The notes under the pieces were generated by a model. The model saw nothing but the letters and a program-made list of their open reading frames with translations. It did no database searches and was not told where the DNA came from. A program made the translations under genes and the position numbers. Positions 1 to 3,986 of a stretch of 64,000 nucleotides of DNA are shown piece by piece (position 1 is the first letter of the stretch; each line of letters opens with the position of its first letter). The stretch is from Gammaproteobacteria bacterium Ga0077536 (GTDB lineage: Bacteria; Pseudomonadota; Gammaproteobacteria; Ga0077536): the NCBI GenBank assembly GCA_001464935.1, contig LNEL01000047.1:62001-126000 (forward strand). The letters are read 5' to 3'.

Positions 1-2
1 GG

Positions 3-971
3 CAGGCAGAGACGCGCTATCGCCTGCTGTTCCAGCTCGCGTCGGCTGCGGTGCTGATCGTGGAGGCCTCGTCGCGCAAGATCACCGATGCCAATCCCGC
101 GGCGCTGGCGCTGATCGGCGGCAACAGTCGCAAACTCGTCGGCAGCGCGCTGGCCGACTGTTTCCCGGAAGCCGATGCGGCCGTCGTCAATGAAATGCTG
201 ACAACGGTCAAGGCCATCGGACGCACGGATGAACAACGGATCACCGGCGGCGAACGCAAACTGCCGCTGACGATCACCGCCTCGCTGTTCCGTGAGGAAG
301 CCGGCGAACATTTCCTGGTGCGCCTGACCGCCGCCGACGCGCATGACGGCGACGCCGGCAGCGCCGCGCATTCGCGCGTTGCCGCAATCATGGAGCAGAC
401 GCCGGATGGCTTCGTGGTCACCGATCAGAACGATCGCATTCTGGCTGCCAACCCGGCGTTCCTCGATCTGGTACAGCTGGCAACCGAAGCGCAGGTCGAA
501 GGTGAAAGTCTCGAGCGGTGGCTAGGCCGTCCCGGCGTCGACATGAGCGTGCTCGCCGCGAACCTCAAGCAGTACGGCTCGGTGCGCTGCTTTGCGACCA
601 AACTGCGCGGCGAATATGGCTCGACCATCGACGTCGAAATTTCGGCCGTCGCCGTGCCGAACGGTGACGAAGGCTGCTGCGGCTACGTCATTCGCGACGT
701 CGGGCGCCGGCTCGGCACGCAGACGCGTTCGGTGCGCGAACTGCCGCGTTCGGTCGATCAGCTGACGGAACTGATTGGCCACGTGTCGCTGAAGGATCTG
801 GTGCGCGAAGCGACTGACGTGATCGAGCGGCTGTGCATTGAAGCAGCGCTCGAACTCACCGGTGACAATCGCGCGTCGGCCGCTGAAATGCTCGGCCTCA
901 GTCGCCAGAGCTTCTACGTGAAGATGCGCCGGCACGGCCTCGGCGACCTGGCGCCTGAAGGCGAAAAGTAA
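3..971 (+). CDS. ppsR: PpsR/CrtJ photosynthesis repressor (5' end cut by window edge)
   Basis: This is the C-terminal ~322 residues of a PpsR/CrtJ-type redox- and light-responsive repressor of photosynthesis genes; the family is usually ~460 residues, so the N-terminal PAS region lies outside. The frame is open from base 3 with no stop. Two PAS-like segments are visible, the first from the edge to about residue 110 and the second starting near EQTPDGFVVTD. They are followed by a Fis-type helix-turn-helix ending in GLSRQSFYVKMRRHGLGDL. A cysteine sits just before the HTH (ERLCIEAALELTG), where the redox cysteine of this family lies. It is followed by bchG and bch2, the usual neighbourhood, and its predicted TGT-N12-ACA operators recur through the window. 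Identification is secure; only the start is missing. Confidence 0.93.
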   Translation, partial: QAETRYRLLFQLASAAVLIVEASSRKITDANPAALALIGGNSRKLVGSALADCFPEADAAVVNEMLTTVKAIGRTDEQRITGGERKLPLTITASLFREEAGEHFLVRLTAADAHDGDAGSAAHSRVAAIMEQTPDGFVVTDQNDRILAANPAFLDLVQLATEAQVEGESLERWLGRPGVDMSVLAANLKQYGSVRCFATKLRGEYGSTIDVEISAVAVPNGDEGCCGYVIRDVGRRLGTQTRSVRELPRSVDQLTELIGHVSLKDLVREATDVIERLCIEAALELTGDNRASAAEMLGLSRQSFYVKMRRHGLGDLAPEGEK

Positions 972-1087: not shown

Positions 1088-1136
1088 TGTAAACTTTAAT
1101 TGACAGCACATGCTCGTGTGTCTATTTTTAAGGACA
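1088..1136 (+). promoter_or_regulatory. Two PpsR/CrtJ operators and sigma70-like promoter before bchG
   Basis: There are two perfect TGT-N12-ACA palindromes at 1088-1105 and 1119-1136, separated by 13 bp. A TTGACA -35 (1100-1105) lies in the first site and a TATTTT -10 (1123-1128) in the second, with a 17-bp spacer. Repressor binding would cover both elements. The second site ends on the A of the ATG at 1136, so transcription would start at or within a few bases of the start codon, suggesting a leaderless message. The motif is the established CrtJ/PpsR site; occupancy is inferred. Confidence 0.82.
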
Positions 1137-1429
1137 TGCGTACGCCGCAGCCCGCCGCTGTCCTTGAATTGCTGAAGCCGGTCACCTGGTTTCTGCCGAT
1201 GTGGGCGCTCGCCATCGTGACACGCAGCGACTTCAAGCCCGCGGTGTTCGTCATCGCCTTGCGGTACCTGAGGGGGCGTCCGTACGGCGCCGCGGCCATC
1301 GTCGGCCTGCTCCAGAATCCGCGCGAACGCGCCCCCTGGCTCCACGCGAACGGAGTCCCACTGCCGGTGTCCGGCATCCTGATCGGCGCGTTCGCGCTGC
1401 AATCCCTATTCACCGCGGGGGCTCCATGA
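1136..1429 (+). pseudogene. bchG: Internally deleted bacteriochlorophyll synthase (bchG remnant)
   Basis: This 97-codon ORF begins with the BchG N-terminal signature (LELLKPVTWF, then PMWA) and ends with the BchG C-terminal signature (NPRERAPW, then NGVPL and GAFAL). BchG is a ~300-residue membrane prenyltransferase that attaches the phytyl or geranylgeranyl tail to bacteriochlorophyllide. Here roughly 200 residues are absent, including the Asp-rich NDxxDR-type substrate-binding motif and most membrane helices. The reading frame is kept, the ATGA overlap with bch2 is intact, and both PpsR sites lie upstream. The remaining protein cannot be a working synthase of the known type. Causes could be a real in-frame deletion with another bchG elsewhere, an assembly collapse, or a new small derivative. 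Confidence 0.8.
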
Positions 1430-2790
1430 GTCGCAGAACATTCGGTTGGCCCACCATCTTCAGGCTCGGCCTCGTCCAGGCTTCGCTCGGCGCGATCGTC
1501 GTCCTCACGACCTCCACGCTGAACCGCGTGATGGTCGTCGAGCTCACGCTGCCGGCGCTGCTGCCGGGACTGCTGGTCGGCATTCACTACGCGCTGCAGG
1601 TCCTGCGTCCAAGACTCGGTTACGGATCTGATGTTCACGGCCGCCGCACGCCGTGGATCCTCGGTGGCATGGCAATGCTCGCTGCCGGCGGCGCGCTGGC
1701 GGCGATCGCCACGGCGCTGATGGGATCGTCCTTCGGGCTCGGCGTGGCGACCGCTGTCCTGGCGTTTGCGCTGATTGGTGTCGGCGTCGGCTGCGCGGGC
1801 ACCACGCTGCTCGTGCTGCTCGCCAAACGCGTCGACACCGAACGCCGCGCCGGCGCCGCCACCGTGGTATGGCTGATGATGATTTTCGGTTTCATCATCA
1901 CCACGGCGATTGCCGGCCATCTGCTCGATCCCTATTCCCCGGCCAGACTCGTCGCCGTGGTCGGTGGCATCAGCGTCATTGCGTTCCTCGTGTCCGTGCT
2001 CGCGCTGTGGCGCGTGGAAGGGCCCGTCGAGACCAACCCTGCCGACCGCGCCGATCAGGCCGCACAGGCGGTCCCGGGCGCCTTCAAGGCCGCACTTGCC
2101 GAGGTGTGGAACGAGCCGAATTCACGGCGCTTCGCCGTATTCGTATTCGTGTCGATGCTCGCCTACAGCGCACAGGACCTGATCCTCGAACCCTTCGCCG
2201 GCGCGGTGTTCGGCATGACGCCCGGTGAGTCGACCAGACTCGCCAGCATTCAGCACAGCGGTGTCCTCGTCGGCATGATTCTCGTCGCGCTCGCCAGTCG
2301 TGCCGGCATCGGCGCGAGCCTGCGCCCCTGGATCTTCGGCGGCTGCATCGGCTCCGGCCTGGCGCTGCTCGGCCTCGCTGCTGCGAGCTTTGTCGGACCC
2401 GACTGGCCGCTGCGCCCGTGGGTCTGCGTACTCGGATTCGCCAATGGTGTGTACGCAGTCGCCGCCATCGGCTCGATGATGGCGCGCGCCGACGAAGGCA
2501 CCGAACGCCGCGAAGGCGTGCGGCTCGGCCTGTGGGGTGCAGCGCAGGCCCTGGCGTTTGGTCTCGGCAGCTTCATCGGCACCGCGGCCAGCGACGTCGC
2601 GCAGGCACTGTTCGGATCGCCCGTCACGGCCTATGCCGTGGTGTTCGGCGCGGAAGGCCTTTGTTTCCTGGTGGCTGCGGTCCTTGCAGTCCAGTTGCGT
2701 GGCAACGCTGAAGCGTCGCCCGCCGTACGTCCCACTCCGTATGGCAGCCCTGCGCTGTCACCCAAACTCGCCCGGACGGTAAGCAGATGA
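1426..2790 (+). CDS. BCH2/PucC/LhaA-family membrane protein of the photosynthesis cluster
   Basis: This 454-residue, highly hydrophobic protein is of the major-facilitator-like PucC/LhaA/BCH2 family, with about 12 predicted membrane segments. Family members help assemble light-harvesting complexes and are proposed to move or deliver bacteriochlorophyll. The family pattern LVxASLGAIVVLTTSTLNRVMVVE is visible near the N-terminus, and RTPWILGG follows the second helix. The ATG at 1426 overlaps the stop of the bchG remnant (ATGA), and its own stop overlaps the bchP start in the same way, so the three are translationally coupled. This position between bchG and bchP is that of bch2 (ORF428) in other phototrophs. 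The start is set by the overlap, although the frame is open further upstream. Confidence 0.88.
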   Translation: MSRRTFGWPTIFRLGLVQASLGAIVVLTTSTLNRVMVVELTLPALLPGLLVGIHYALQVLRPRLGYGSDVHGRRTPWILGGMAMLAAGGALAAIATALMGSSFGLGVATAVLAFALIGVGVGCAGTTLLVLLAKRVDTERRAGAATVVWLMMIFGFIITTAIAGHLLDPYSPARLVAVVGGISVIAFLVSVLALWRVEGPVETNPADRADQAAQAVPGAFKAALAEVWNEPNSRRFAVFVFVSMLAYSAQDLILEPFAGAVFGMTPGESTRLASIQHSGVLVGMILVALASRAGIGASLRPWIFGGCIGSGLALLGLAAASFVGPDWPLRPWVCVLGFANGVYAVAAIGSMMARADEGTERREGVRLGLWGAAQALAFGLGSFIGTAASDVAQALFGSPVTAYAVVFGAEGLCFLVAAVLAVQLRGNAEASPAVRPTPYGSPALSPKLARTVSR

Positions 2791-3986
2791 ACAACTCACC
2801 CGACTATGACGTGGTAGTGATTGGCGGTGGCCCGGCCGGCGCAATCGCGGCCACGGATCTGGCGCGACGCGGTCGACGCGTCGCGCTGCTCGACCGTCAG
2901 GGCCGCATCAAGCCCTGCGGCGGCGCGATCCCCCCGAAGGCAATCGAAGAATTCGAACTGCCTGATCACTTGCTGAAGGCGCGCGTCACGGGCGCGCGGA
3001 TCGTCTCACCGACCCACCGCTGCATCGACATGCCTATCGACAACAACGGCTATGTCGGCATGGTCGACCGTGCCGAGTTCGACGAATGGTTGCGGGAACG
3101 GGCAGCGCTGCAGGGCGCGACGCGCGTGCGCGGCGAGTACGAGGACATCGTCGACAACGCGGACGGCAGCGTGTCGGTCCGTTATCGCGACGCCGACGGC
3201 GTCAGCAACGTCCTGCGGACCCGCTCGGTCATCGGTGCCGATGGTGCGGCCTCACGCGTCGCGAAGGCCCGCGTGCCCGGCGCCGGTGACACGCCATATG
3301 TCTATGCGTATCACGAAATCATCAGCGCCCCGACCGCGGGGAGCGAGGGCGTCGACTACAGCGCGCGCCGCTGCGATGTCGTGTACGACGGCAAGTACTC
3401 GCCCGATTTCTACGCCTGGGTCTTTCCGCACGGGGATACCGTCAGCATTGGCGTCGGCACCGCGAACAAGGGCTTCTCGTTGCGCGGCTCGGTGACAGCG
3501 CTGCGCAAGGCGACAGGTCTCGACGGCCAGAAGACACTGCGCCGGGAGGGCGCACCGATTCCGCTGCGCCCGCTGAAGCGCTGGGACGACGGCAAGTGCA
3601 CCGTCCTCGCCGGCGATGCCGCCGGGGTCGTGGCGCCCGCGTCCGGCGAAGGCATCTATTACGCGCTGCTCGGCGGACGACTGGCCGCCGACGCGATCGA
3701 AGAGTTTCTCGTCTGTGGACGTCCGGCAGTGCTCGCCCAGGCGCGCAAGCGCTTCATGAAAGCGCACGGCAAGGTGTTCTGGGTGCTCGGCATCATGCAG
3801 CGCTTCTGGTATCACAGCGACAAGCGCCGCGAGCGCTTCGTCAGCATGTGCGGCGATCGCGACGTGCAGCGCCTGACCTGGGAAGCCTACCTGCACAAGC
3901 GGCTCGTTCGCGCCCAACCGATGGCGCATCTGCGCATTTTCCTCAAGGACCTCGCCCACCTGACGGGCCTGGTTCGTCCGTCCTGA
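2787..3986 (+). CDS. bchP: Geranylgeranyl (bacterio)chlorophyll reductase
   Basis: A 399-residue flavoprotein that reduces the geranylgeranyl group to phytyl on bacteriochlorophyll or on the free diphosphate, using NADPH. The N-terminal FAD-binding GxGxxG motif is plain (VVVIGGGPAGAIAA), followed by the family KPCGGAIPPKAIEEF segment. The second FAD motif, AGDAAGVVAPASGEGIYYA, lies near residue 275. Length and motifs match BchP/ChlP. The ATG overlaps the upstream stop by 4 bp. Because bchG is broken here, the usual partner that supplies the esterified substrate must come from elsewhere if the pathway is active. Confidence 0.95.
   Translation: MNNSPDYDVVVIGGGPAGAIAATDLARRGRRVALLDRQGRIKPCGGAIPPKAIEEFELPDHLLKARVTGARIVSPTHRCIDMPIDNNGYVGMVDRAEFDEWLRERAALQGATRVRGEYEDIVDNADGSVSVRYRDADGVSNVLRTRSVIGADGAASRVAKARVPGAGDTPYVYAYHEIISAPTAGSEGVDYSARRCDVVYDGKYSPDFYAWVFPHGDTVSIGVGTANKGFSLRGSVTALRKATGLDGQKTLRREGAPIPLRPLKRWDDGKCTVLAGDAAGVVAPASGEGIYYALLGGRLAADAIEEFLVCGRPAVLAQARKRFMKAHGKVFWVLGIMQRFWYHSDKRRERFVSMCGDRDVQRLTWEAYLHKRLVRAQPMAHLRIFLKDLAHLTGLVRPS

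Follow-up and report, generated by a model that had tools for sequence, protein, structure and literature searches.

The photosynthesis operon in the window (the whole stretch of 64,000 nucleotides analysed here) raises the question of how an organism whose bacteriochlorophyll pathway looks complete, judging by its gene content, manages with a broken operon bchG. The conserved slot ppsR-[bchG]-bch2-bchP is occupied by a reduced bchG, as the last bacteriochlorophyll gene of the photosynthesis operon (Table 1); the whole of ppsR, of which the window holds the C-terminal part, encodes 478 amino acids (L008:11536-12972). In this draft assembly of 65 contigs, 92% complete by a tool estimate, bchC, X, Y, Z, M, L, H, B, F, D, I and P, pufL, pufM and the crt genes all score as intact, the scored set lying outside bchN and acsF/bchE.

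The sequence-only reading had taken the open reading frame for a derivative of BchG, and this is borne out by two kinds of profile. PRK07566, the NCBIfam model for BchG/ChlG, matches it in two stretches (E 2e-10) with 40 bits against a cut-off of 313, and TIGR01476 gives 21 bits against a cut-off of 212; over the full profile, the remnant fails the cut-offs of both family models. A Pfam search of the frame gave no match. The BchG profile that we made from 55 intact BchGs matches residues 2-27 (i-E 6e-12) and 53-91 (i-E 2e-10) of the remnant. By slot and by sequence, the remnant and bchG share descent. The reading frame, the two PpsR sites and the overlap with bch2 are all preserved, as had been proposed, and the coordinates proved exact. 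The TGA of the remnant and the ATG of bch2 overlap as ATGA (1426-1429, forward strand), and of 54 other loci examined, 33 likewise have ATGA where bchG stops.

Table 1 Features of the bchG slot and the intact bchG elsewhere in the genome (window positions unless a contig is named)
Feature	Position	Strand	Remarks
ppsR, C-terminal part	1..971	+	TIGR02040 509 bits, cut-off 275
PpsR box 1, TGTAAACTTTAATTGACA	1088..1105	+	perfect TGT-N12-ACA; its TTGACA is the -35 element
Sigma70-like promoter, TTGACA-N17-TATTTT	1100..1128	+	1 found, 0.0 expected in shuffles
PpsR box 2, TGTCTATTTTTAAGGACA	1119..1136	+	perfect TGT-N12-ACA; covers the -10 element, ends on the A of the remnant ATG
bchG remnant	1136..1429	+	97 codons plus stop; ATG start, TGA stop
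Kept block 1, BchG N-terminus (PAAVLELLKPVTWFLPMWALA)	1136..1213	+	about residues 12-34 of the intact copy
Kept block 2, diverged second motif	1214..1237	+	IVTRSDFK for IMTLNDFK; about residues 191-198 of the intact copy
Kept block 3, PAVFVIALRYLRGRPYGAAAIVGLL	1238..1312	+	residues 231-255 of the intact copy; 12/25 identical
Kept block 4, QNPRERAPW...FALQSLF	1313..1411	+	residues 267-299 of the intact copy; 15/33 identical
bch2, PucC/LhaA-type MFS protein	1426..2790	+	PF03209 316 bits
bchP, geranylgeranyl reductase	2787..3986	+	TIGR02023 492 bits, cut-off 343
Full-length bchG	G000:C59:192808-193704	minus	TIGR01476 344 bits, cut-off 212; PRK07566 413, cut-off 313

Alignment to the BchG family resolves the remnant into four collinear, in-frame blocks rather than the two ends first proposed, while the estimate of about 200 missing residues stood. 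The blocks are parted by three in-frame deletions of about 155, 31 and 11 codons, about 197 codons in all, the number and exact limits of which are our inference from the alignment; the 11-codon deletion splits the C-terminal half into two collinear blocks. The Asp-rich catalytic motif (NDxxDRxxD) has been deleted, as the sequence-only reading had noted, and the second motif has diverged from GIMTLNDFK to AIVTRSDFK. This second block is short and has an alternative reading, in which residues 27-33 are aligned without a motif block. In all 55 bchG genes compared, the GIMTLNDFK motif is the best place for positions 1211-1240, with 18-24 of 30 nucleotides identical. Against the genome's own intact bchG, the match is 23 of 30 in codon phase, and 3000 shuffles gave at most 21; since 3000 random 30-mers from the window (mean 17) also reach 23, the score against a single gene is not overwhelming. 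What carries the assignment of the motif block, which we regard as probable, is that all 55 genes point to the same place, which is in phase and collinear.

The kept blocks have also lost the constraint expected of an enzyme. Eight of 25 near-invariant positions (at least 90% identical among intact BchGs, in kept columns) are changed in the remnant, compared with an average of 0.5 and a maximum of 2 in intact BchGs; this count follows a two-block reading of the N-terminal part, where three of the changes are C35, G36 and G41, which would be deleted, not substituted, under the motif-block reading. Under either reading, the conserved Cys (C35 of the intact copy) and NDxxDRxxD are absent, both of which are essential in plant (oat) ChlG according to mutagenesis (PMC9066304). 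Through L239R and W242R, Arg now stands in place of a conserved Leu and a conserved Trp within what used to be a hydrophobic stretch. The remnant forms the longest branch of the BchG tree (1.1, against a median of 0.27), a tree that does not fix its placement and does not reject a sister relation to the intact BchG of the same genome. These changes suggest that the remnant has no synthase activity.

The proposal that a second synthase exists is supported by a search of the genome, which found a full-length bchG on another contig, C59. Its product has the NDWYDRDVD and NDFKAIKGD motifs and the conserved Cys, and scores as BchG with both family models; the genome has five UbiA-superfamily genes, of which the other four score as other families. 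With a full-length BchG predicted to act in trans, the apparent paradox of a missing synthase is resolved. As a separate observation, a 514-residue frame on contig C62 (L005:814-2355) joins an N-terminal part resembling NAD(P)H-oxidoreductases to a MenA/UbiA-type prenyltransferase.

The C59 gene stands alone, with neighbours that are not recognisably photosynthesis genes. The contig is not a contaminant: each of the eight other genomes of the genus has a counterpart, 78-88% identical, of the dehydrogenase gene that lies about 0.9 kb from bchG, the opposite flank likewise matches the genus and the GC content is the same. The window's own contig, C47, also matches the genus outside the photosynthesis cluster. 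In the other eight genomes of the genus, we found no BchG above the family cut-off and no Bch2 at the threshold used. The C59 BchG falls in the same broad clade as the lone copies of genus g366 described below, its nearest relatives being those copies or Thiodictyon, depending on sampling. A transfer from g366, suggested by 71% identity and a first tree, was withdrawn when the addition of Thiodictyon changed the sister group. A search of viral contigs returned nothing and a scan of genome contigs only two loci; ten plasmid records carry bchG at 58-70% identity, and the Thiodictyon one, which was inspected, is operon-linked.

In relatives, the slot is usually filled. In the same family, G012, G021, G027 and G033 each have a full-length bchG between ppsR and bch2, and genus g366 keeps bchG in the slot at 29 of 32 inspected loci. 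Within the family, only five of 36 genomes have bchG and bch2, spread over four genera and with BchGs in separate clades, which indicates that the photosynthesis cluster is patchy there. In the g366 genomes G653, G527 and G535, ppsR is followed directly by the bch2 promoter and a lone bchG lies on another contig. The bch2 genes of these three genomes group with g366 (support 100/99), while their bchGs belong to a different well-supported clade; the disagreement between the two trees indicates that the operon gene was replaced by a bchG of other ancestry. The Bch2 tree is informative for g366 only, its base being without resolution and the origin of the cluster not fixed by it. The lone g366 copies (L156-L158; bch2 slots L140, L143 and L144) lie in at least two different neighbourhoods. 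The g366 replacement thus resembles the present case in that the operon bchG is gone and a lone bchG sits outside the cluster among unrelated neighbours. It differs in that the slot is empty there and holds a 97-codon in-frame remnant here, and in that a different ancestry is supported for the g366 lone copies and not established for the C59 copy.

The promoter of the operon may bear on why the remnant has kept its start. Upstream of it, TTGACA-N17-TATTTT is the only promoter-like site, with a predicted transcript start at about 1135-1136; given the position of this promoter, the transcript would begin at about the A of the remnant ATG and would be leaderless. With a permitted distance of 30-42 nucleotides, 63 of 72 upstream regions including the remnant (62 of the 71 others) have TTGAC 34-37 nucleotides ahead of a start codon; the start codon was picked among in-frame candidates to fit the spacing, which favours agreement somewhat. 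The same spacing fits 46 of the 47 regions with a full TTGACA. The set of 72 is phylogenetically uneven, more than one third coming from g366 and two rows being duplicates, and 12 loci were left unscored as they had no anchor. The PpsR-type promoters of bchC and crtE in the same window lie farther upstream of their genes, both of which have sequences like a Shine-Dalgarno (SD) element. Judged from sequence, bchG mRNA probably lacks a leader, and the promoter spacing predicts such transcripts in several classes of Pseudomonadota. A literature search on leaderless bchG found no paper.

The explanation that we hold with good confidence is displacement followed by decay: the remnant is the dead operon bchG, and the BchG of C59 would esterify bacteriochlorophyllide instead. 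A second bchG would have arisen on C59 by acquisition or by duplication and relocation, after which the operon gene would have been freed from constraint and have taken on radical substitutions and the three in-frame deletions, while the full-length C59 enzyme would carry out the esterification in trans. The promoter, the PpsR boxes, the start position and the bch2 overlap would have been retained since bch2 and bchP make use of them as well. The three g366 genomes, with an empty slot and a lone bchG from elsewhere, would show such a process run to its end. We infer this order of events from the present state of the two genes. Counted against this explanation is the upstream region of the C59 gene, where we looked for a PpsR box and found none, which bears on whether the gene may be expressed together with the cluster; the draft state of the assembly counts against it as well.

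Three other readings appear much less probable. The 97-residue product could have taken on a new role as a small membrane protein, such as binding BchG or Bch2, since two or three hydrophobic stretches are left, the N-terminal block LELLKPVTWFLPMW is well kept and the frame is gene-like; we consider this improbable, as the two Arg substitutions fall within a former hydrophobic stretch and none of the other slots that we inspected holds a comparable short form. It is most unlikely that a full-length bchG was collapsed or chimaerised at 1136 in the assembly: the genome is indeed a draft, but a collapse would give undamaged BchG sequence, whereas the kept blocks have diverged from every BchG, each of the three deletions preserves the frame and the operon is otherwise unbroken. 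Equally slight is the chance that the organism has lost bacteriochlorophyll production and its cluster is beginning to decay, as the sequence-only reading had offered among its options. The broken operon copy of the gene that ends the pathway would fit such a loss, but the intact BchG on C59 and the integrity of the tested bch, pufL, pufM and crt genes speak against it.

A further proposal, compatible with displacement and decay, is that the remnant is under selection as a leaderless leader cistron and not as an enzyme. Ribosomes would initiate at the AUG that forms the 5' end of the PpsR-controlled transcript, translate the 97 codons and reinitiate at bch2 via the ATGA, and only in-frame deletions would be tolerated, because a shifted frame would lower the expression of bch2 and bchP. 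In agreement with this, none of the three deletions shifts the frame (1/27 by chance), although their number and limits depend on the alignment. Drift has introduced no stop codon, an outcome with a probability of about 0.4 at the divergence estimated, the promoter-to-ATG distance is the one usual for bchG loci and the ATGA has been retained. The codon use is gene-like in frame (GC3 0.85), which may, however, just reflect recent decay. G653 has an ATG at this same distance, from which a 35-codon frame runs to a TGATG on bch2, but G535 and G527 have no such frame, and all three of these g366 genomes lost the gene cleanly. Moreover, bch2 has an SD-like stretch of its own (CGCGGGGGC), with a duplex energy of -8.6 kcal/mol compared with -3.2 kcal/mol for random coding 18-mers. 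The earlier idea that the shortened peptide keeps bch2 coupled to its promoter therefore gains from the in-frame deletions, the start position and the overlap, and loses from the SD-like stretch and the clean losses elsewhere; selection as a leader cistron is a tentative proposal, and a coupling role a possible, optional second layer on displacement and decay. The open frame in itself was rejected as proof of selection, as 17% of composition shuffles also leave a 97-codon frame open; the frame is kept mildly better than plain decay predicts. The 35-codon frame of G653 (L143:1388-1495), at the leaderless position, has no BchG similarity that we could find, and we do not claim it as a bchG remnant. 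A broader generalisation is about equally tentative: that bchG is leaderless across purple Pseudomonadota and its residual frame is kept as a leader cistron when the function moves, with the first codon fixed to the PpsR promoter and a leader of 97 codons here and 35 in G653.

With the canonical ppsR-bchG-bch2-bchP operon of purple bacteria, the locus shares the slot, strand, PpsR-box promoter, start position and ATGA overlap. It shares four collinear blocks with canonical bchG, from which it differs by the missing codons, the loss of NDxxDRxxD and of the essential Cys and the changed near-invariant positions. It resembles an ordinary pseudogene in its accelerated divergence, its deletions and the intact copy in trans, and differs from one in that its frame, promoter and downstream overlap are fully intact. 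Within the partial coverage of our literature search, no truncated or displaced bchG was found. As a single case, this is an unusual but understandable pseudogene, made more interesting by the leaderless promoter spacing and by bchG having left the operon more than once.

The second bchG accounts for a step that seemed to be missing from an otherwise complete bacteriochlorophyll pathway, and cautions that a broken gene inside the cluster does not imply loss of phototrophy. Although commonly regarded as a constant part of the cluster, bchG can leave it, cleanly in one genus and with a remnant here, and the conserved leaderless spacing offers a testable explanation of how a first cistron that is dead might still keep its start region and frame.
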